Positions 3,042 through 22,561 of a stretch of 64,000 nucleotides of DNA are shown piece after piece; the first letter of the stretch is position 1; each line of letters starts with the position of its first letter. A model generated the notes under the pieces. It did no database searches and was not told where the DNA came from. It worked only from the letters and a program-made list of their open reading frames with translations. The DNA is taken from IMG/VR virus record IMGVR_UViG_3300046791_000454, positions 1 to 64,000 of that record, one strand, 5' to 3'. The stretch comes from a virus. Both the position numbers and the translations under genes were made by a program.

Positions 3042-3844
3042 ACACCTCCGAGGGCCGTCAAGAGACGGCGGCGGGCGTTGTCGTCCAGGAGAGAGACGAA
3101 GCGGGCTACGTCGACGGGCGCAAAGGCGACGACGGTTCGTGCGAGCTTAGCTACACGGTCCTCTTCGACGCCGAGCGCTTCGCGGACGACGGCGTTAATC
3201 TTCTGCTGGAGCTTCTTCCGCTCCGGCTCCGTCTTGGGCCTGGGCTCGGCCTTGGCGGCTTCGGCGGCGGCGCGTGCGACCTCCGTTACCTTCGCCGCCT
3301 GCTCAGGCGTCGGGTTCTTCGGCCCGAGCTTGGCGGCCTCCTTCTGGCCTAGCAGGCCGGCCTTGTAGAGGTTCACGGCTGGCTCGGGCGCTCGGAGCAC
3401 GGCACGGTCGCGAACCTGCTCCCTGGTCATGGGAGGATTCCGGGCCTTAGACCCTGAATCCTCATCCGGCTTGCTGTGTTGGTTCGCGCCGTTCGCCTCG
3501 CGGCCGTCGCCTTCCGGCGCCGTCACCAGGCGGAGAGCGGGCTTGCCGATCGCGGCTTCGAGGAAGGGCGCGATCTCGGCGTACGGCTTCCCAAGACCCC
3601 ACGGCTGGCGGTGCTCACAGAACTCCTCGAACGTGCGGAAGGTCGAGTCGTCGGGCTTGTTCATGAGCGTCCACGCGCGGTGCTCCCGACAGAGCTCGAC
3701 GTAGCCCTTGAACCGCTCGGGCGCCTTCGGCAGGTCGTGGACAATCGACTGCATCGTCAGGCGCACGTGCTGCGCCCACTCGACAGTGCCAACCGCCGCC
3801 GCCTTCTTGCCTACCCCCGGATCAGCCAGCACGAGCCGCTCCAT
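3038..3844 (-). CDS. Hypothetical early protein, possibly replication- or DNA-associated
   Basis: This 268-residue protein has a conserved-looking N-terminal part with STFRTFEEFCEHRQPWGLGK (about 67-86). A basic Ala/Lys/Glu linker (about 120-210) follows, then a C-terminal helical part (ARFVSLLDDNARRRLLTAL). The FRTFEEFC...GLG pattern recurs in proteins of mobile elements and high-GC bacteria near replication or partition genes, but I cannot assign it firmly. The ATG lies 22 bases inside the end of the helicase gene upstream. Confidence 0.6.
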   Translation of the reverse strand: MERLVLADPGVGKKAAAVGTVEWAQHVRLTMQSIVHDLPKAPERFKGYVELCREHRAWTLMNKPDDSTFRTFEEFCEHRQPWGLGKPYAEIAPFLEAAIGKPALRLVTAPEGDGREANGANQHSKPDEDSGSKARNPPMTREQVRDRAVLRAPEPAVNLYKAGLLGQKEAAKLGPKNPTPEQAAKVTEVARAAAEAAKAEPRPKTEPERKKLQQKINAVVREALGVEEDRVAKLARTVVAFAPVDVARFVSLLDDNARRRLLTALGGV

Positions 3845-5333
3845 TCGTCGGTGGCTTCGGTGCGGGCGCGGCCGCCGGAGCTCCGCGGAAGTGCTCGCCG
3901 AGCTTTAGAATCTCACGCGGGGGGAGATGTCGGAGTGCGGGGAACTTGCCGCGGGCTTCGTCCACGATCTCGTTCTCTTCGGGCGATAGGCGCCCGTGCA
4001 AGTCAGCGTATTCGTCTCCCCCCATCTCGGCCCCGTAGGGCCGGAAGGACGACTTCCAGTGCTTCGGCGCGACACCGCCCTCGCCCTTCTCGCGAAACGT
4101 CTCTTCCTGCTCCTCGAGGATTCGATCGATGAACCCGCGCATCGGAGGATCGTCGGGCACGTAGATGTAGGCGAGCTGCTGTTCCCATGGGCGCCCGCAG
4201 TTCGGGTCGACGCGCGTCGCGCGCGCGAACGCCTGCTCAAGCCACGGCTCCGAACGCTTGTCCGTCAGGCAGACAAGATGCGTGACGTCCGGCACGTCGA
4301 GCCCTTCGTAGGCCATGTTGACCGTCACAAGCACGTGGCATTCACCGTTCTCGCGGAAGCGCCGCAAGGCGCGCTGGGAGCGAGGCGCGTCTGAGACGCA
4401 CAAGGCGACCTGGAAGCTGGTACCGAGTCGCTCCTTGATAGACTTCGCCATCTGCTTCGCAGCGTCCTGCGAATGGCAGATGACGATCATGCGGCTCTGA
4501 TAGACGTTCCGCCGGAAGTCGAGCCAATCGTCCAGCGCCTTGCAAGCGAACTCGGCTCGGAATTCAGGGTCAAGCAACGCCGCCTTGAGCGCGCGCCCGG
4601 TCTCCTTCTTGCTAGCCTCCTTGAGGGCGACGCGATGCGATCGATTGCGGTAGTCGTAGTGCGAGGTCCCATCCGTCAGGCGGAAGAACGCCTGGAGCAC
4701 CGCGTGCTCCTCGAGTGCTTGCCGACGTGTGTACTTGATGGTGGGTTTCGCGCGCTTGGTGTCCTCGTCGTATTCAACGAACGGGATACGCTCCCCGTCG
4801 TGGCGTCGTAACGTCCCACTCATGAGCAGCGTCAGGGTCGCGAACTCCTTCAGTTCGCGGATGGCCTTCGCCCATTGCGCATGTTCTGCATCGGCGAGGT
4901 GGTGAGGCTCGTCCAGCACGAGCAGGTAGCGCTTGCCCATGAAACGCTTGATATGTCGCTTTACCGCACGCACCACGGCCGCGTATGTGGTGACGTAGCC
5001 GCTCGCCGCGAAGATCGCTTGCTGCGTCGACCCGAGCGACTTGTTTCCTTCTGCGTTGATGTGCCGCGGCAGCCCGTGTGCCGGATCGTGGAATGCCAGC
5101 TTCGTCTGATGGCGAAGAGCATCGTTCGGCCCGATGATGCACACGGCATCGACGATGCAGGCGTCCAGGAGCTCGTGCGCGAAGATCGCCGCGAGCCTAT
5201 TCTTGCCACCACCAGGCGTGACGGACGCGACGAACACCTTCTCGGTTCGCCGTCCGTTGATGATGTCTTCGGCGAGGGCCTTCCCCTCCCACTGGTGAGA
5301 CCGAAGAAGCCCGTATCGTTCGTCCTGAATCAT
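3822..5333 (-). CDS. SF2 DExH helicase / ATPase
   Basis: Start at ATG 5333, overlapping the upstream stop (ATGA); a 60-base in-frame extension above it is not supported. The product has 503 residues. Superfamily 2 motifs in order: I TPGGGKN (39-45), II LDEPHH (140-145), III SGT (172-174), then the second RecA-like domain with HVLVTVNMAYEGLDVPDVTH (about 333-352) and motif VI QAFARATR (367-374). Such phage helicases remodel replication forks or recombination intermediates. The P-loop ends in Asn where Thr or Ser normally coordinates Mg2+, an unusual change. Confidence 0.85.
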   Translation of the reverse strand: MIQDERYGLLRSHQWEGKALAEDIINGRRTEKVFVASVTPGGGKNRLAAIFAHELLDACIVDAVCIIGPNDALRHQTKLAFHDPAHGLPRHINAEGNKSLGSTQQAIFAASGYVTTYAAVVRAVKRHIKRFMGKRYLLVLDEPHHLADAEHAQWAKAIRELKEFATLTLLMSGTLRRHDGERIPFVEYDEDTKRAKPTIKYTRRQALEEHAVLQAFFRLTDGTSHYDYRNRSHRVALKEASKKETGRALKAALLDPEFRAEFACKALDDWLDFRRNVYQSRMIVICHSQDAAKQMAKSIKERLGTSFQVALCVSDAPRSQRALRRFRENGECHVLVTVNMAYEGLDVPDVTHLVCLTDKRSEPWLEQAFARATRVDPNCGRPWEQQLAYIYVPDDPPMRGFIDRILEEQEETFREKGEGGVAPKHWKSSFRPYGAEMGGDEYADLHGRLSPEENEIVDEARGKFPALRHLPPREILKLGEHFRGAPAAAPAPKPPTNGAARAG

Positions 5334-5938
5334 CGTCCCTCTCCCGTCCACCCCTGCTCCCGCAACCGCCCAGCCACATCCGGCCCGACCCACGAGGCGC
5401 TCTTCAGCACCTTCCCCCGCTCGTCCACCGTCGTCGGGAACTTGCGCATGTTCGCCGCGTGAATCTCGGCGGCAATCGGCGCCCCGTTGATTCCGAACTC
5501 CAATCGCGTGCCAGCCACCACATAGTCAATGTCTCCGCACGCGTCAGCGAATGCCGGCAAGTCGACGCAGAGCGGATGATTGTCAATCGCGTGCATGAGC
5601 CACGACTTGAGCGACATGTCCGTGCCGGGTGCGGCGAAGTCCAGGCCGCATGCCTCCAGGGCCTCGAAGCACTCCTCGACGATGAGGCGCAACCGAAGCC
5701 GCACGCGGTCGTCGCCAGGCACGCGCGGCGCCTCGAGCACCGGCGCCCCCGCTGCTTCGTGGAACTCGCGGACCATGGCCGGCAGGTCCAGCGCGCGGCG
5801 TTCGAGTACGAGGCGCGTGTTGCTCGCCTGCAACTCGTCACGCTGCCGCCGCAGCTGGTCCCGCTCGCAGAGCACCCGCGCGAGGGCATCGGCCACCGTT
5901 TCGCCAGGCAGCTCGGGTCCGAGGTCGGCGGCGCTCAT
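5330..5938 (-). CDS. MazG-like / PRA-PH nucleotide pyrophosphohydrolase
   Basis: This 202-residue protein has an N-terminal coiled coil (about 20-48) fused to an all-alpha NTP pyrophosphohydrolase-like domain. It contains MVREFHEA (55-62), IVEECFEALEACG (86-98) and DACGDIDYVVAGT (132-144), and ends with HAANMRKFP. The EExxE and DxxD clusters are the expected Mg2+-binding acidic residues. Such phage enzymes hydrolyse (d)NTPs or signal nucleotides to monophosphates. The next gene in the coupled chain is deoxyribosyltransferase-like, which together suggests nucleotide-pool control. Confidence 0.8.
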   Translation of the reverse strand: MSAADLGPELPGETVADALARVLCERDQLRRQRDELQASNTRLVLERRALDLPAMVREFHEAAGAPVLEAPRVPGDDRVRLRLRLIVEECFEALEACGLDFAAPGTDMSLKSWLMHAIDNHPLCVDLPAFADACGDIDYVVAGTRLEFGINGAPIAAEIHAANMRKFPTTVDERGKVLKSASWVGPDVAGRLREQGWTGEGR

Positions 5939-8016: not shown

Positions 8017-8304
8017 TCAGGTCCCCGTCTTCGGCCGAGCCGGCTCGGGCCTAGTCGCCGTGTCGCGCTCTTCCCTCGTCTCCCAGGCCGACGCGGGCAC
8101 CTTGCCGCGCGACCACCGCTCGATGGCACCTCGCAGCGGATGCCGCGGTCTCCCGTGGCCGTTGAGCCACTCAGACATCGTTGCGTTGCTCACGCCGATC
8201 GCCCTGGCGGCATCGAGGGCCGTGAAGTCGAGCTCCTCGATGAACTTCTGGAGCAACTGCCGGCCCAGGTCGGGGTGCGGCACTGGCGATTCGGTCCTCG
8301 GCAT
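8017..8304 (-). CDS. HTH (XRE-like) transcriptional regulator
   Basis: Start at ATG 8304; 95 residues. Residues about 14-65 form a Cro/C1-type helix-turn-helix (LLQKFIEELDFTALDAARAI, then GVSNATMSEWLNGHGRP). The C-terminal tail is short and charged, without a protease or dimerisation domain. It heads the leftward early chain and faces the HTH gene at 8398. The intervening 93 bases hold TTAGG/CCTAA sites, one of which overlaps this gene's ribosome-binding site, so autoregulation is likely (inference). Confidence 0.75.
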   Translation of the reverse strand: MPRTESPVPHPDLGRQLLQKFIEELDFTALDAARAIGVSNATMSEWLNGHGRPRHPLRGAIERWSRGKVPASAWETREERDTATRPEPARPKTGT

Positions 8305-8310
8305 GTCGGT

Positions 8311-8325
8311 GAACCTAACCGAATG
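8311..8325. promoter_or_regulatory. Operator-like site A
   Basis: AACCTAACCGAATG at 8312-8325 lies just upstream of the HTH gene ATG (8304). It matches AACCTATCCGAACG at 10727-10740, before the plus-strand early operon, at 12 of 14 positions. Sharing between two divergent control points suggests one repressor binds both. Confidence 0.5.
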
Positions 8326-8359
8326 CGGCGGGGCGCGCAAGCCTGGACGCAAAAAAAAG

Positions 8360-8372
8360 TTAGGTCGCCTAA
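8360..8372. promoter_or_regulatory. Operator-like inverted repeat B
   Basis: TTAGGTCGCCTAA has perfect 5-base arms TTAGG/CCTAA around TCG. It sits between the divergent HTH genes (8304 and 8398) after an A8 run. The half-site is the same as in sites at 8312 and 10716. Confidence 0.55.
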
Positions 8373-8397
8373 ATTTGTGGGCTTCTACGGTGGTCCC

Positions 8398-8976
8398 ATG
8401 CCGAAGCCGCCGGAGCTGACCATGGGCCGATACCTCCAGTTTTTGGCGGTGGCCTGGATGCGCACGAACCGCGCAACGGCGAAGGAGCTCGCGGCCGCTG
8501 TTGGCGTCACGGGGGCCCAGATCCACGACGTCATCAGCTTCGCGCGGGGCGCTGGGCCCAAGACGGTGCGTGGCTTCGCGGCACTCCGTGGCGTCGAGGA
8601 GTGGGAGCTCCGACGTGATGCGGCCGCATGGGAGGCGGAGAACCCCGTGCCGTTAGACGGCCCGGTCGATCTCGAAAACCTCGGCGCTTCCTTTCGAGAC
8701 GCGGTGGAGCGCAACCCGGGCCGCTGGTCTCATGACGAGATCAAAACAGCTGTGGCGGCGCGTGGGTCCGACGGCTTCGCCAGCATGACGCCCGAGGGCA
8801 TCGTCGACTTCATCGATAGCGTGGCGCAGGCGAATCGACGGGCGAACCGCGAGGCTCAGCTCATCAAGACGAGCCGCCCTCATCGCGTCCTCTCACTGCC
8901 ACCAAAGCCTGAGGAGCGCGACGAAGTTGCCGAGCGCCGAGCGCTACTCGCGAAGAAAAAGCGGAGGACGAGGTAG
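8398..8976 (+). CDS. HTH DNA-binding protein
   Basis: 192 residues from ATG 8398; earlier in-frame starts would run through the control region and are not favoured. Residues about 8-65 contain a helix-turn-helix (ATAKELAAAVGVTGAQIHDV, then ISFARGAGPKTVRGFAALRG). The rest is acidic and helical, ending in a basic tail KKKRRTR that may bind nucleic acid. It is divergent from the HTH gene at 8017-8304 with shared operator-like sites between them, the usual arrangement of a lysis-lysogeny switch; which of the two represses is unclear. Confidence 0.7.
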   Translation: MPKPPELTMGRYLQFLAVAWMRTNRATAKELAAAVGVTGAQIHDVISFARGAGPKTVRGFAALRGVEEWELRRDAAAWEAENPVPLDGPVDLENLGASFRDAVERNPGRWSHDEIKTAVAARGSDGFASMTPEGIVDFIDSVAQANRRANREAQLIKTSRPHRVLSLPPKPEERDEVAERRALLAKKKRRTR

Positions 8977-8981
8977 GAAAT

Positions 8982-9185
8982 ATGGCTCTAACAACATGCG
9001 CGACGTGCGGGATTCAGCTATCCGACGAGGCGCCGACTTGCCCACGCTGCGGCGCACCGCAGAAGACCGTCCTAGAAAAGCAGGCGAACGCATCGGCCTG
9101 GCGATCGCTTGCGAGCCTACTCGTCGGAGTGGTCTTGCTGTGGGGCTTCTACCGGCTGCTTTTCATGGCCGCGTGCGGCAAGTAG
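8982..9185 (+). CDS. Zinc-ribbon membrane protein
   Basis: 67 residues, five bases after the preceding gene with AGG-rich RBS sequence. CATC (6-9) and CPRC (20-23) form a zinc ribbon, followed by a charged linker and one transmembrane helix (SLASLLVGVVLLWGFYRLLF, about 42-61). Its TAG abuts the stop of the convergent lipoprotein gene, the two stops forming TAGCTA. The ribbon-plus-anchor layout is common in bacteria and phages; function unknown. Confidence 0.7.
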   Translation: MALTTCATCGIQLSDEAPTCPRCGAPQKTVLEKQANASAWRSLASLLVGVVLLWGFYRLLFMAACGK

Positions 9186-9869
9186 CTACTGCCAGACGCC
9201 GCCCGTGCCGTTGCAGCCGTACGTGTCGCACGGCGCGATGGTGCACGGCGTCGCGTTCGAGATGAAGAGCGTGAAGACTCCGCCGAGTCCTGGTGCCTGC
9301 TGTTGCAGGACCGCGAACGAGCCTTCGGTGATGGTCTCGCACCCGCCCGTGGGCGAATCGCAAGACAGAGGCTGAGGCGAGCCCAGCGGCGCGATGCTTG
9401 GGATCGCGCCACCGTATGCGAACGTCCCGCCGCACGTCGTGCCAGCGGGGAACGCGACCGGGAGCGCCCAAAGCGTAGCGCTAGACGTGTCGCACGCGCA
9501 GCGCGGGTCGCGGAGCGCCGTCTGCGGCGCCTTGACCTTAGTCGTTCCGAAGCTGAGCATCAGGACCTTCGAATCGTTGCAGACGTCGGCGCACACCGTG
9601 TCGACGGGGCCGCACGTCGGGTCGCAGTTGATGATCGTGTCGGCGTCGCCGGGCTGTAGACACGCGGCATCCGGGCACCCCGTCCCGCCGCCGGTGCTAC
9701 TCGATGACGAGGAGCTCACGCTGGACGTGGCGCCTCCCGTTCCAGCCGCCGACGAGCTCGCGCTGTCCGTCGTGCTCCCGCTACCTCCTGAACCACCGGC
9801 ACCCTCAAGACCCTGCGCCGCCGAGCACGCCACCGCCGACACTGCAACCGCTATCGCAATAATTCTCAC
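9186..9869 (-). CDS. Secreted lipoprotein with Ser/Gly-rich linker (cargo gene)
   Basis: The GTG at 9869 was chosen because it gives a proper signal peptide: MRIIAIAVAVSAVAC with Cys15 as the lipid-modified residue (lipobox-like AVAC). The frame stays open further upstream but without such a signal. Residues about 20-60 are a Gly/Ser/Thr/Ala linker. The rest is a Cys-rich exported domain with many short Cys pairs (CPDAAC, CDPTCGPVDTVCADVC), likely disulfide-bonded. This layout is typical of myxobacterial lipoproteins. It is alone on the minus strand between plus-strand genes, as expected for a lysogenic-conversion cargo gene. Confidence 0.7.
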   Translation of the reverse strand: MRIIAIAVAVSAVACSAAQGLEGAGGSGGSGSTTDSASSSAAGTGGATSSVSSSSSSSTGGGTGCPDAACLQPGDADTIINCDPTCGPVDTVCADVCNDSKVLMLSFGTTKVKAPQTALRDPRCACDTSSATLWALPVAFPAGTTCGGTFAYGGAIPSIAPLGSPQPLSCDSPTGGCETITEGSFAVLQQQAPGLGGVFTLFISNATPCTIAPCDTYGCNGTGGVWQ

Positions 9870-10005
9870 GTCGTCATGGTAAGCCGACGAACGGCATGGC
9901 GCTACGCTGCGCGCGTGAGCAGCGGCGGACTTCGACCTAGCTGTAACGCACCTGGTCCGCCACGATCCATCTTCCGCCGCGGGCAAAGCAGAGCCATCCT
10001 GCGAC

Positions 10006-10638
10006 ATGGATCTGGGGGATCTTGAGGCGCTCGCAGTAGAGGCCATTGAAGCGGTAAACGAGGACCCGGAACGTCCGCCGTCGGCGTTCCGGCTCGCTCG
10101 CGCCCACCTCGGCGCTGGCTCCGTCGACCGGCCGCGCATGATGGTCGGGCCTCCGGCCGTCACGTTCGAAGTGGCGGGGCAACAGCGGATCGCGATCAAG
10201 GCGTCCGTGCCGCTCGAGTACGCGCACTTCTGCTGCGCGCACGAGCTCGGCCACGTGCTCCTCGCGCGCGCCGGCTTCCGCGGCCCGCTCGACGAGGAAG
10301 AGGTCTGCGCCAATTACCTTGGCGCTGCGCTGCTCATGCCGCGGCCCGCCGTGCGCTCGTTCTACCGGGCCGAGGGCCTTTCTCCGCGCCGTCTGGCGAA
10401 GGTCATCGTCTGCACGCAGACGGCGGCAGCGCTCCGCTTCGGCGAGGTGCTCATGTCGCCGCTCGCCGTCGTCGCGCCGGCCAGCGTGCGCGTGCGTGGC
10501 CCCGAGGCGTGGGTCTGGCCTGACGAGCGGACGATCCGCCGCTGGGCATCGGGACGGCCCGGGCCCGGCGTCGCGAAGATCCGGCTGACCGACCAGAAGC
10601 GCGTCGCGCTCGTCGGCAGCGACAACGACGCGGCGTAG
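10006..10638 (+). CDS. ImmA/IrrE family metallopeptidase
   Basis: 210 residues. CAHELGHVLLAR (78-88) carries the zinc-protease HExxH motif (H79, E80, H83). EEEVCANYLGAALLMP (about 96-111) supplies the downstream Glu and the conserved A..LLMP strand of the ImmA/IrrE family. These proteases cleave phage or ICE repressors to trigger induction. The gene lies between the HTH block and the plus-strand early operon, so cleavage of one of the nearby HTH proteins is the natural hypothesis. Confidence 0.85.
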   Translation: MDLGDLEALAVEAIEAVNEDPERPPSAFRLARAHLGAGSVDRPRMMVGPPAVTFEVAGQQRIAIKASVPLEYAHFCCAHELGHVLLARAGFRGPLDEEEVCANYLGAALLMPRPAVRSFYRAEGLSPRRLAKVIVCTQTAAALRFGEVLMSPLAVVAPASVRVRGPEAWVWPDERTIRRWASGRPGPGVAKIRLTDQKRVALVGSDNDAA

Positions 10639-10650
10639 CTTCTTCTCGCC

Positions 10651-10687
10651 GAAGCCGCCGCCTAGGGCTTCGCCGAATTTTTCGGCG
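10651..10687 (+). terminator. Overlapping hairpins, possible terminator/attenuator
   Basis: Two mutually exclusive stems: GAAGCC (10651-10656) with GGCTTC (10666-10671), and CGCCGAA (10671-10677) with TTCGGCG (10681-10687). A T5 run follows at 10697-10701, slightly too far for a classical intrinsic terminator. It lies between the ImmA gene and the early promoter region. Confidence 0.35.
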
Positions 10688-10703
10688 CGTCGTCGATTTT
10701 TAC

Positions 10704-10740
10704 TTGCGCTTCGATTAGGTTCGCTTAACCTATCCGAACG
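10704..10740 (+). promoter_or_regulatory. Early promoter with operator inverted repeat
   Basis: TAGGTTCGCTTAACCTA (10716-10732) is a perfect 6-base inverted repeat (TAGGTT/AACCTA) with a 5-base spacer. It overlaps a plausible promoter, TTGCGC at 10704 and TAACCT at 10726, 16 bases apart. The ATG at 10741 follows within a few bases of the predicted transcription start and has no Shine-Dalgarno sequence, so the first message may be leaderless. The site resembles those at 8312 and 8360. Confidence 0.5.
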
Positions 10741-11082
10741 ATGGCAACGCGAACCGAGACCCTCTTCACCGTCGACCGCGACGGCGAGTCCTTCTCCCTC
10801 CCGCTCTCGGCCCTGACCGACGACGAGCGCGACCAGCACCTCGCCGGTGACTACCGCTGGCTCTCCGACGAGCAGGCCGCCGCGCTCGCTGCGACGGTGA
10901 CGCCCGCCGAGTTCCGCGCGCACTGCGCGTGCTGGGACGAGAACCTGCTCGCCGCCTACTGGGCGCGTCACCCGACGAACGAGACGCTGCGCGTGCTCCG
11001 CGAGCAGATGAACGCGGCCACGAGCAGCGGCGACGCTGGCAACCTCGTCATCAAGCTGTTCTTCAGCACGAGGGCAGCGTGA
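10741..11082 (+). CDS. First gene of the plus-strand early operon, unknown
   Basis: 113 residues, acidic, beginning MATRTETLFTVDRDGESFSL. Contains a helical part (PAEFRAHCACWDENLLAAYW) and ends LVIKLFFSTRAA. It starts immediately after an operator-like inverted repeat without a visible ribosome-binding site. First position after a repressed promoter suggests an early regulator or replication accessory, but no motif supports this. Confidence 0.6.
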   Translation: MATRTETLFTVDRDGESFSLPLSALTDDERDQHLAGDYRWLSDEQAAALAATVTPAEFRAHCACWDENLLAAYWARHPTNETLRVLREQMNAATSSGDAGNLVIKLFFSTRAA

Positions 11083-12835: not shown

Positions 12836-13116
12836 AGCGCTGCCACACGTGCGACCGGCCGAAGGCCACGGACGAGGACTGGAAGAAGATTCCCGAGGGC
12901 CAAGGCGAGCACCTCTGCTGGGAGGTCCCGTGCAGGGATACGCCTGTCGACTGGCGGGCTCGGGCGCTCGTGGCGGAAGCGGTGGCCGACGAGGCGACAT
13001 GTTGCGAGAAGTGCATCGTGTGTGAGCGCTGGATCGGCGCTGGCCGCAATCACGACGACGGGTGCCGGGTGCTTACGTATGAGCTCGCGAAAGAGCGAAG
13101 GGAGATGGCGAAGTGA
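12826..13116 (+). CDS. Cys-rich hypothetical protein
   Basis: Start GTG 12826, ten bases inside the preceding gene, with AAAGAGG spaced eight bases before it; 96 residues. CHTC at 5-8, a Cys pair near 31-36, CCEKCIVC near 58-65 and a later Cys suggest two zinc sites. It ends one coupled GTGA before the RecE-like nuclease gene. Unknown function. Confidence 0.55.
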   Translation: MQVERCHTCDRPKATDEDWKKIPEGQGEHLCWEVPCRDTPVDWRARALVAEAVADEATCCEKCIVCERWIGAGRNHDDGCRVLTYELAKERREMAK

Positions 13117-13934
13117 CCGAAGCATTGCGACCAGGCCTGCACAAGAACGTACCGCCGCACATCTACCACACGCGTCGCATCGGCACCGTGTCGAAGTCGG
13201 CGCTCGACCACGTGCGTCGCTCGCCAGCGCACTATCTCCAGTGGGCTCGCGGCGAAGACACGGAGACGACGCCCGCGCTCGCCTTCGGCTCCGCGTTTCA
13301 CTGCGCGCTGCTCGAGCCGGAGCGCTTCGAGCGCGAATACGCGGCCGAGCCCGACTTCGGCGACTGCCGCTACAAGGACAACAAGGCGAAGCGCGACGCG
13401 TGGCGCGAAGCGCATGCCGGCACGACGCCGGTCGCCGTCGATGACGACAAGGCCATTAGAGCCATGCTCGCATCAGTCCGCGCTCACCCGCTTGCCAGGA
13501 ACATGATCCAGGCCGGCGAGCCCGAACTGACGGCCGTCTGGACTGACCTCGAGACGGGCCTCATGTGCAAGTGCCGCGCGGACTACTACGTAGAGCGGCT
13601 CGGCATGGTCGTCGACGTCAAGACGACGCTCGACGCGCGCAGCAACCCGTTCGGGCGCTCCGCGTTCGACCACGCGTATCACGTGCAGGACGCGCTCTAT
13701 CGCGCCGGGTTTCACGACGTGGGAAAGCCGATTCAGTTCTTCGTTTTCATGGCAGTTGAGAAGACGCCGCCTTATGCTATTGCGACGTACGCGCTTGACG
13801 CTCGGGGGATCGGCATCGGGTATTCGACCGCGCGCCGAGACATCGAGCGGTTGGCCGACTGCATCAAACGAGACGAGTGGCCGGCCTACGATGTCGGCAT
13901 TCAAGAGCTAAGCCTCCCTCCCTGGGCGGCATGA
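13113..13934 (+). CDS. RecE-like PDDEXK exonuclease
   Basis: 273 residues from GTG 13113 (GTGA overlap). This matches the phage exonuclease VIII-type family: SKSALDHVRRSPAHYLQW (28-45), ALAFGSAFHCALLEPERF (55-72), then the catalytic core GEPELTAVW (135-143), CRADYYVE (154-161) and VVDVKTT (166-172), giving Asp157, Asp168 and Lys170. The enzyme degrades one strand of duplex DNA to make 3' overhangs for the annealing protein encoded next. Located in the early operon immediately before recT. Confidence 0.85.
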   Translation: MTEALRPGLHKNVPPHIYHTRRIGTVSKSALDHVRRSPAHYLQWARGEDTETTPALAFGSAFHCALLEPERFEREYAAEPDFGDCRYKDNKAKRDAWREAHAGTTPVAVDDDKAIRAMLASVRAHPLARNMIQAGEPELTAVWTDLETGLMCKCRADYYVERLGMVVDVKTTLDARSNPFGRSAFDHAYHVQDALYRAGFHDVGKPIQFFVFMAVEKTPPYAIATYALDARGIGIGYSTARRDIERLADCIKRDEWPAYDVGIQELSLPPWAA

Positions 13935-16977: not shown

Positions 16978-17955
16978 ATGTCAGAGTTTCACATTCGCGT
17001 TGTCTCGATTGGCCCCATCGTCAAGCACCCGAACGCCGACGCACTGAGCATCGTCGACGTCGAAGGCTACCCGGTCATCATGCGCACCGGCGACTTCGCC
17101 GAGGGCGACAAGGCCGTCTACGTGCCGGTCGACGCCATCGTCCCGGCGGACGATCCGCGCTGGGCCTTCCTCGCCGGGCACTGGCGCATCAAGGCCAAGA
17201 AGCTTCGCGGAACGTTCAGCATGGGGCTTCTCACCGCGTCGGACCCCGCTTGGGAAGTTGGCCAGAACGTGCAGGCCGAGCTCCGCATCGAGAAGTACGA
17301 CCCGGAGATCGCGGAGCAGAACAGCAAGGGCCCGTGCCCCGACGATGAGCCCGACCCCGGCCTCATTCCCGTCTACACCGACATCGAGGGCCTTCGAAAG
17401 TACAGCCGCATTCTCGAGACGGGCGAGCAGGTCGTCCTGACGGAGAAGATCCACGGCGAGAACTTCCGCGCCGTCTTCGCCGATGGTCGCCTCTGGGTCG
17501 GCTCACGCACGCGCTTCAAGCGGCCTGATGCGGGCACGAAGTGGTGGGCTGCGGCGCGCTCCGCTGGCTTGGAAGAGAAGCTGGCCCGCTTCCCCGGCGT
17601 GGCCGTCTACGGCGAGTCGCACGGCTACACCGGCGGATTCCCGTACGGGCAGCCGCCAGGCAAGCCCGCGGTGCGCCTGTTCGACGCGCTTGACAGCAAG
17701 ACGCGGCGCTACTTCCACGACGCGGACTTTCAAGCGTTCGCCGAGGAGATCGGCGTCGATACGGCGCCGGTGCTCTATCGGGGTTCGTGGTCCGAGGACC
17801 TGCGTTCGCACGCCGAAGGGCGGAGCACCCTGGATGCGAGCCACGTGCGCGAAGGGTTCGTGGTTCGCCCGGTCGTCGAGCGGCACGACCATCGCGTCGG
17901 GCGTGTCATTCTCAAGATGGTGGGAGAAGGTTATTTGCTCCGCAAGGGCGCGTGA
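16978..17955 (+). CDS. RNA ligase, Rnl5 (DraRnl)-like
   Basis: 325 residues, with GACAGGAG upstream. The N-terminal domain (1-100) is OB-like and resembles tRNA-binding folds: IVKHPNADALSIVDVEGYPV (14-33) and YVPVDAIVP (48-56). The nucleotidyltransferase domain has motif I LTEKIHGENFRAVF with Lys157 as the adenylation site, GVAVYGESHGYTG (motif III region), EGFVVRP (motif IV) and GRVILKMVGEGYLLRKG (motif V) at the end. This domain order matches the Deinococcus-type RNA ligase. It seals 3'-OH/5'-phosphate RNA nicks and may undo host tRNA or rRNA cleavage. Confidence 0.85.
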   Translation: MSEFHIRVVSIGPIVKHPNADALSIVDVEGYPVIMRTGDFAEGDKAVYVPVDAIVPADDPRWAFLAGHWRIKAKKLRGTFSMGLLTASDPAWEVGQNVQAELRIEKYDPEIAEQNSKGPCPDDEPDPGLIPVYTDIEGLRKYSRILETGEQVVLTEKIHGENFRAVFADGRLWVGSRTRFKRPDAGTKWWAAARSAGLEEKLARFPGVAVYGESHGYTGGFPYGQPPGKPAVRLFDALDSKTRRYFHDADFQAFAEEIGVDTAPVLYRGSWSEDLRSHAEGRSTLDASHVREGFVVRPVVERHDHRVGRVILKMVGEGYLLRKGA

Positions 17956-22121: not shown

Positions 22122-22328
22122 ATGACCAAGAGCCGCCCGCCGCCCATTCCCGACCAGATTCGCACCGCACGCACCGCTGCGCACCTTTCCCAGGCTCAGC
22201 TTGCAGAAAGCACGGGCCTTCAGCAGTCGGCCATTGCCCGCTATGAGACCGGCGAACGCGATCCGAACCTGCGAACGCTCCGGATTCTGGCCGGAGCACT
22301 GAACACGGTGTGGCTCGTTTACCCGTAG
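22122..22328 (+). CDS. XRE-family HTH regulator
   Basis: Start at ATG 22122; 68 residues, a stand-alone Cro/C1 helix-turn-helix: IRTARTAAHLSQAQLAESTG, LQQSAIARYETGERDPNLRT, LRILAGAL. It has no effector domain. Divergent from 21512-22042 with a perfect inverted repeat between them. Independent of the HTH pair at 8017-8976, so the genome has at least three HTH regulators. Confidence 0.8.
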   Translation: MTKSRPPPIPDQIRTARTAAHLSQAQLAESTGLQQSAIARYETGERDPNLRTLRILAGALNTVWLVYP

Positions 22329-22561
22329 ATTTCGCGCGCTACGCATCCAAGTCATAGCCCATGACGCCGGTGTCATCGTGGCCCATGCGTCGGTAAACAT
22401 AGACTAATATGCGCTTTCTGAGGCACGCTGTATCAACTCCGATGCCGCCGGTGTCATACTGAACGGTCCTCCACACGGCGGCGGCGGGGCCTCTAATGCC
22501 GGTAATCAGCCAATGTCTCCAGCGGCATTGGCTGGCACACCCCGTGCAATGCCTCTCTGAC
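22329..22561. other. Non-coding interval with repeats
   Basis: No convincing gene. It has noticeably lower GC and contains GCCGGTGTCAT twice (near 22363 and 22447), the near-palindrome ATGACGCCGGTGTCAT, and CCAATG/CATTGG (about 22510-22531). It looks like a regulatory region for the small plus-strand genes that follow. A minus-strand ORF covering it lacks coding character. Confidence 0.4.
22532..22549 (+). promoter_or_regulatory. Possible sigma-54 (-24/-12) promoter
   Basis: CTGGCACACCCCGTGCAA fits TGGCAC-N5-TTGCA with one deviation; the GG and GC dinucleotides are exactly 10 bases apart as required. Start of transcription would be near 22559, just before the ATG at 22562, giving an almost leaderless message. 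Sigma-54 promoters are abundant in myxobacteria but rarely described in phages. Confidence 0.35.

Follow-up and report, generated by a model that had tools for sequence, protein, structure and literature searches.

A probable lambda-like immunity region in a phage probably of Myxococcota, with related operator-like sites over two outward-facing early promoters

The window analysed here comprises 64,000 nucleotides (nt), positions 1 to 64,000 of virus record IMGVR_UViG_3300046791_000454, which is 81,496 bases long, linear and possibly incomplete. It contains a locus, lambda-like in organization (Table 1), that probably governs immunity (lysogeny control) in a phage of temperate type. Two promoter-like strings of like build point outward from a block encoding a helix-turn-helix (HTH) protein, here HTH2, and an ImmA-like metallopeptidase, and each early promoter carries a related operator-like site (site 1 or site 3) outside that block. 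As judged from their sequences, these two matching sites probably serve as the switch by which the virus is held in dormancy. An earlier note on this DNA had proposed a lysogeny switch, and this reading is supported because both sites have promoter positions and are conserved, with parallel change, in a sister phage, and because an XRE gene faces a divergent HTH gene in other elements, with shared half-sites on both flanks of the block in one distant element and perhaps another. The host, judged from remote relatives, is probably a member of the Myxococcota.

All four sequences quoted in the earlier note (8312–8325, 8360–8372, 10716–10732 and 10727–10740) are present at those positions, and their arrangement differs from its description in several respects. 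They were said to flank two HTH genes and ImmA; of these, ImmA and the 8398 HTH gene are indeed inside, but the XRE gene (8304–8017, minus strand) is outside and the 8312 site falls between the two HTH genes. Each of the two matching sites, not just one of them, stands immediately in front of a start codon (8304 on the minus strand, 10741 on the plus strand). There is also more than one type of site, the 8360–8372 palindrome being separate from the shared motif, and the sequences at 10716–10732 and 10727–10740 overlap and are not independent.

Table 1. Coordinates of the proposed control region, its candidate sites and associated genes in the window.
Feature	Coordinates	Strand	Remarks
XRE/Cro-like small gene, 95 amino acids	8017..8304	minus	Opens minus-strand early operon
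HTH2, divergent HTH gene, 192 amino acids	8398..8976	plus	Candidate CI/ImmR-like repressor
Zinc-ribbon protein gene	8982..9185	plus	Cargo in block; Zn_Ribbon_1 E 3.6e-6, above cut-off
Open reading frame (ORF) with signal-like start (by eye)	9186..9869	minus	Inside block; possible secreted or lipoprotein cargo
ImmA-like Peptidase_M78	10006..10638	plus	HELGH motif; PF06114 E 4.8e-9, above cut-off
First gene of plus-strand early operon	10741..11082	plus	Function unassigned; no Pfam or PHROG match
RecE-like exonuclease	13113–13934	plus	Plus-strand operon; phrog_412 E 1.1e-83
RecT-like annealing protein	ends 14740	plus	Plus-strand operon; phrog_561 E 4.1e-66
DNA helicase	3822..5393	minus	In gene run opened by XRE; ResIII E 1.3e-11; phrog_16 E 1.1e-22
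Candidate operator site 1	8307..8321		Dyad CGGTGA-ACC-TAACCG, 5/6 pairs; over XRE -10 box
Site 2	8352..8378	plus	A-tract and palindrome AAAGTTAGG-TCG-CCTAAATTT; overlaps putative -35 of HTH2
Candidate operator site 3	10722–10738		CGCTTA-ACC-TATCCGAA; over -10 box of 10741 promoter
Weaker copy overlapping site 3	10710–10726	minus	Whole region 10710..10738; dyad centres 10 base pairs (bp) apart
XRE promoter-like string	8302..8340	minus	TTGCGC (8340–8335), 17-nt spacer, TAGGTT (8317–8312), 7 nt, ATG (8304–8302)
Right early operon promoter-like string	10704..10740	plus	TTGCGC (10704–10709), 16-nt spacer, TAACCT (10726–10731), 9 nt, ATG 10741

The promoter-like strings are uncommon in the genome. 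The form TTGN3-N16..18-TAN4-N6..9-ATG precedes seven of the 1,786 ATGs of the record (both strands), 8304 and 10741 included; among 124 predicted gene starts it is found at 10741 alone, 8304 being outside that set as the simple gene caller had chosen 8283. ATG 8304 is taken as the XRE start because the start of the protein is conserved in the sister phage, in which both strings also keep their spacing and that of XRE its build. On inspection by eye neither ATG is preceded by a Shine-Dalgarno sequence, which suggests that the mRNAs from 8304 and 10741 are leaderless. A general promoter scan using stricter hexamers did not list either promoter.

The half-site TTAGG/CCTAA is concentrated at the two control regions, and the earlier note's claim that it is shared holds up better than the 12-of-14 match. 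Of the 19 copies in the 81.5-kilobase (kb) record, four fall within the 195 bases of these regions, where a uniform density would give 0.05; none of 1,000 shuffles of the two regions reaches four (mean 0.37), and the same four are among just seven copies in 38 gaps. A degenerate site pattern with zero mismatches occurs solely at these two places in each phage record, and the exact palindrome TTAGGN3CCTAA is present once per record in both phages. When site 1 alone is used to scan the window's record, site 3 scores highest after site 1 itself (16.6 bits; best unrelated 13.0) and the weaker copy overlapping it ranks third. At 22391, downstream of a third HTH regulator gene (22122–22328, plus; phrog_1373 E 8e-11), is a sequence that weakly matches site 1 (rank 5, 12.5 bits).

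The search with ImmA identified a single relative, the 58.5-kb sister phage IMGVR_UViG_3300046559_000883 (G001). Identities between the window and this phage are 92% for ImmA, 66% for HTH2, 61% for the first early protein and 51% for XRE, and helix 3 differs between the phages in both HTH proteins. The disparity between ImmA (window 10006–10638, L004 6001–6633) and the other three proteins suggests, at the level of sequence, either recent exchange or strong constraint. The two control regions of the sister are placed as in the window and both sites are kept. Site 1 reads CAGTTA-AGC-TAACTG in the sister, with six of six pairs: where one arm differs by G/A the opposite arm differs by C/T, and the position unpaired in the window is paired. 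The chance of such a compensatory change is about 0.005 in a simple substitution simulation. Site 3 is CGCTTA-ACC-TATCCG in the window and CGGTTA-ACC-TATCTG in the sister, and a C-to-T change is common to sites 1 and 3 there. Within the left region the bases kept are 24 of 27 at 8352–8378, 11 of 15 in site 1, 13 of 30 in the spacer and 14 of 19 in the rest.

Each phage also locates the sites of the other. When 81.5 kb are scanned with a matrix built from both sister sites, the window sites come first and second (20.5 and 19.7 bits), followed by the copy overlapping site 3 (14.0) and then 12.1 bits. The reverse matrix, in 25 kb of the sister, places the right site first (23.3), the overlapping copy second (19.6) and the left site third (17.6), with an unrelated place at 15.1. 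Homology aids both of these cross-phage tests, and the scan with site 1 alone is free of such aid; run separately on the same 25 kb, it again has site 3 as its strongest hit after site 1 (18.1 bits; best unrelated 12.5).

A similar layout is present in more distant elements. Eight XRE loci were compared (window, sister, L018, L051, L052, L053, L059 and L060), the HTH genes of the other elements being recognized by position and by eye; L061 (G284), one of four XRE matches, was excluded from the promoter count by eye, having other neighbours and a GTG start. The XRE gene faces a divergent HTH gene in six loci beyond the window and sister. In seven of the eight, L059 being the miss, exactly one in-frame start (28 in-frame candidates over all loci) has the string TTGN3-N17-TAN4-N7/8-ATG; its background is 23 of 3,208 ATGs in six of these sequences, including the promoters in question. 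A dyad of 5–7 pairs lies at or near the -10 position in all seven loci scored, with an element-specific sequence and without a chance control for the dyads. TTAGG occurs in the control regions of four of the eight elements and is absent from the other four; its count in L051 is reached in 8 of 1,000 shuffles. Between its XRE and HTH genes (5297–5345), L018, from a Polyangiaceae metagenome-assembled genome (MAG), carries a tandem pair of GGTAGCAAGTRCTACC palindromes separated by 31 bp. The ImmA relatives of L018 (6001–6624) and L051 (2236–2796) lack the second zinc-binding histidine, with HELAE or HEIAE replacing HExxH.

L052 (G193), whose ImmA is 44% identical to that of the window (tblastn), repeats its half-site on both flanks. 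All five GTTAGG copies in 14 kb are within two control regions around HTH-ImmA (0 of 1,000 shuffles), the region limits for half-site counts in G193 and G058 having been drawn after the motif was seen. Three copies precede XRE and two are beyond HTH and ImmA, upstream of leftward reading frames. The XRE side has TTGCCT-N17-TATCGT-N7-ATG, and TTGCCT-N17-TAATGT is readable by eye on the far side. L059 is perhaps a second distant element sharing half-sites on both flanks: two copies of CGTTAGCTAAWGG are present, one either side of its HTH gene, and the 8-base core is expected 0.02 times in the locus.

Several results weigh against a working switch of this kind. Between the two gaps no 14-base match exceeds the 12 of 14 that the earlier note had found, and this is no better than chance: at least 12 of 14 is reached by 88 of 1,000 dinucleotide-shuffled pairs and, among the real gaps of the record, by 74 of 406 pairs. 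As 17-mers the sites match at 14 of 17 positions, and 251 of 4,520 intergenic 17-mers match another gap at least that well. AACCTAWCCGAAYG with up to three mismatches occurs 10 times against 7.8 expected (23 of 100 shuffles have as many), TTAGGN4CCTAA with up to two mismatches five times against 4.2, and TTAGGN3CCTAA with up to two mismatches falls below its reversed control (6 versus 11 per strand). The dyad of site 3 is poor, with four of six pairs in both window and sister. A single sister phage was found, so that the covariation rests on two sequences; the right-hand TTAGG reads TTCGG in it, and its TTAGG count is not significant (reached in 80 of 1,000 shuffles). The HTH2 profile finds none of the HTH genes of the other elements, that of L018 aligning at 23%; L060, L053, L018 and L051 have no convincing second copy of the XRE-promoter dyad (7–13 kb each), and the L052 far-side region has no start codon at leaderless distance in a scripted scan. 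Neither PF00589 nor PF00239 is matched in the window's own record, which is linear and perhaps incomplete. A comparison of shared 16-mers gave nothing convincing for L053 and L018.

Likeness alone was therefore rejected as evidence for operators, similarity and loose motif forms being at chance level. The earlier note had asked whether the motif occurs at random density elsewhere, and the answer is divided: exact forms are confined to these regions and matrix matches and the half-site are concentrated there, but loose forms occur at chance density. The shared sites are real as an observation and weak on their own, and it is the context that makes the 12-of-14 match credible.

XRE matches HTH_3 (E 7.9e-4, under the Pfam cut-off) and the repressor family phrog_2328 (E 1.2e-5), and its model has HTH helices, with no Foldseek match in PDB at E<=0.001. 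HTH2 has weak family matches only (Pfam, PHROG), HTH-like helices in the N-terminal half of its model, and no CI-type C-terminal domain recognized by Pfam or PHROG. Foldseek returned HTH proteins, though none at E<=0.001; the best matches of HTH2 are Stl repressors at E 0.045, and identification as an Stl repressor was not used. The ImmA-like protein is an M78-type metallopeptidase with HExxH (HELGH), as in an ImmR/ImmA pair. Of the two divergent HTH genes one opens an early run with DNA-metabolism genes, a lambda-like arrangement of gene order and families.

In the mechanism proposed, a repressor from the block, most likely HTH2, would act in the prophage on sites 1 and 3 and turn both early operons off; upon a signal, ImmA would inactivate the repressor by proteolysis, and XRE would act as Cro. 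A Cro role fits the L060 locus, in which XRE precedes same-strand genes for primase and terminase and has matches to YdaS (E 6.3e-6) and P22_Cro (E 6.9e-6), both under the cut-off. The separate palindrome at 8352–8378 would control the HTH2 promoter and may be bound by XRE, like PY54 Cro, or by HTH2.

The alternative that survives best, although we regard it as unlikely, assigns the roles differently: XRE itself would repress sites 1 and 3 (its own promoter and the right operon), and HTH2 would bind only 8352–8378 in self-control. In its favour the more diverged XRE (51%) pairs with the changed sites 1 and 3 and the more conserved HTH2 (66%) with the conserved palindrome, and a dyad at the XRE promoter is also present in L060 and L059, two loci whose examined stretches gave no ImmA in tblastn searches with the window protein. 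But XRE opens a lytic-type run in the window and precedes primase and terminase in L060, which is Cro's place and not that of a prophage repressor. Less probable again is a decayed or lytic phage whose block is a defence or superinfection-immunity module and not a working lysogeny switch. The record's lack of an integrase domain would agree with this, as would the similar trio in L018, whose neighbours on both sides seem, from inspection of the ORFs by eye, to be ordinary chromosomal genes; the promoter strings and sites are nonetheless intact, and are conserved in a sister that encodes a large serine recombinase (PF00239). It is very improbable that the likeness reflects merely the common -10 boxes of two early promoters, with no operator: both sites overlie such boxes and their match by itself is at chance level, but a common -10 sequence alone does not explain it because the motifs are oppositely oriented to their promoters; in the sister, dyad 1 survives through a compensatory change, and sites 1 and 3 share one substitution.

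The lysogeny-control reading also agrees with the wider gene layout of the record, in which GC content is 0.64–0.70 (2-kb steps). Between the operators are HTH2, the zinc-ribbon gene, the opposite-strand ORF with a signal-like start, and ImmA, so that HTH2 and immA are separated by two genes; the HTH gene and immA are adjacent in L018 and L051. The opposite-strand ORF has no PHROG match and coincides with a stretch without a blastn match between window and sister. The minus-strand run headed by XRE includes a pyrophosphohydrolase and the helicase and is tightly packed save for one 198-base gap; it would continue through helicase genes (one DnaB-like) to a portal gene if the record is circularly permuted. 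The plus-strand run includes an RNA ligase-like gene (16978–17955; phrog_968 E 4.9e-37).

Searches for further relatives returned little. Among viral_contigs, the ImmA search and alignments of HTH2 and of the first early protein all led to the sister alone, single-sequence searches with the latter two gave no match, and an 11-residue XRE match in L005 was discarded. The right-hand site pattern is present there in the sister only. The 16-base pattern of site 2 was found in 23 stretches, 22 of which are AT-rich (GC 0.34–0.47) and look like chance, relatives of the four proteins (tblastn) occurring only in the known sister (L036). A phage collection yielded one weak ImmA relative (MW202476.1, 35%) and no match to HTH2, XRE or the DNA, and plasmids, searched with ImmA only, gave none. 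In genome_contigs the ImmA alignment finds L018 (38%) and the HTH2 alignment has no match. Across 377 genomes of the phylum of the L018 MAG, ImmA is present in three (E<=1e-12) and XRE in four (E<=1e-5), that MAG being in both sets. When the 377 genomes of G002's phylum were searched with the HTH2 alignment, nothing was found at E<=1e-8, not even the known remote copy in G002, so that this search was blind to remote forms.

Characterized Myxococcota phages are few (PMC10720576). The present locus provides named candidate operators, a putative repressor with its putative Cro partner, and what may be a promoter rule in the lysogeny switches of such phages, as well as an example of weighing a weak sequence match by means of a sister phage and distant elements of like layout. 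A broader proposal is put forward tentatively: Myxococcota elements may have a widespread switch with a leaderless Cro-like gene expressed from a TTGN3-N17-TAN4-N7/8-ATG promoter, an element-specific palindrome at the -10 position and, in divergent orientation, an HTH gene that ImmA often accompanies; some elements would repeat half-sites beyond the block, the immunity type changing by co-evolution of both flanks. Expectations for it are modest because the kinship of the HTH genes rests on position and inspection by eye and G193 lacks a leaderless-type promoter on its far side. Switches of this general kind are well known, and this one looks like a new example; it is not described in the titles or abstract openings found, which does not itself show absence.

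In phage lambda, CI acting at OR and OL shuts both early operons. The window phage resembles lambda in having two early operons directed outward on either side of a repressor block, a related site at each early promoter, a Cro-like gene first on one side and recombination genes on the other. In contrast to the three operators at each lambda promoter region there is one main dyad at each here (a single dyad of the site 1 type on the left, and one with its overlapping weaker copy on the right), ImmA and cargo genes are inside the block, and HTH2 is without a recognized CI-type C-terminal domain.

Two further systems are comparable in part, as described in the excerpts of the sources cited. In PY54 one palindrome upstream of cI is bound by Cro, and the cI and cro mRNAs are leaderless (PMC4488713). 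The PY54/N15 switch and the window share a palindrome upstream of the repressor gene and divergent repressor and cro genes; leaderless mRNAs are measured in PY54 and suggested in the window phage, the excerpt reports a single operator and mentions no metallopeptidase, and the likeness considered is one of layout (PMC4488713). In ICEBs1 the HTH repressor ImmR binds six sites at both promoters and is inactivated by ImmA (PMC8960796). HTH2 differs from ImmR in length (192 versus 127 amino acids, by the excerpted account), two genes intervene between HTH2 and immA, and a Cro-like gene is present. As in ICEBs1 (PMC8960796), the candidate HTH repressor and an ImmA-like metallopeptidase are encoded together, divergently from the genes presumed to be controlled, and by analogy HTH2 is a putative substrate for cleavage by ImmA.

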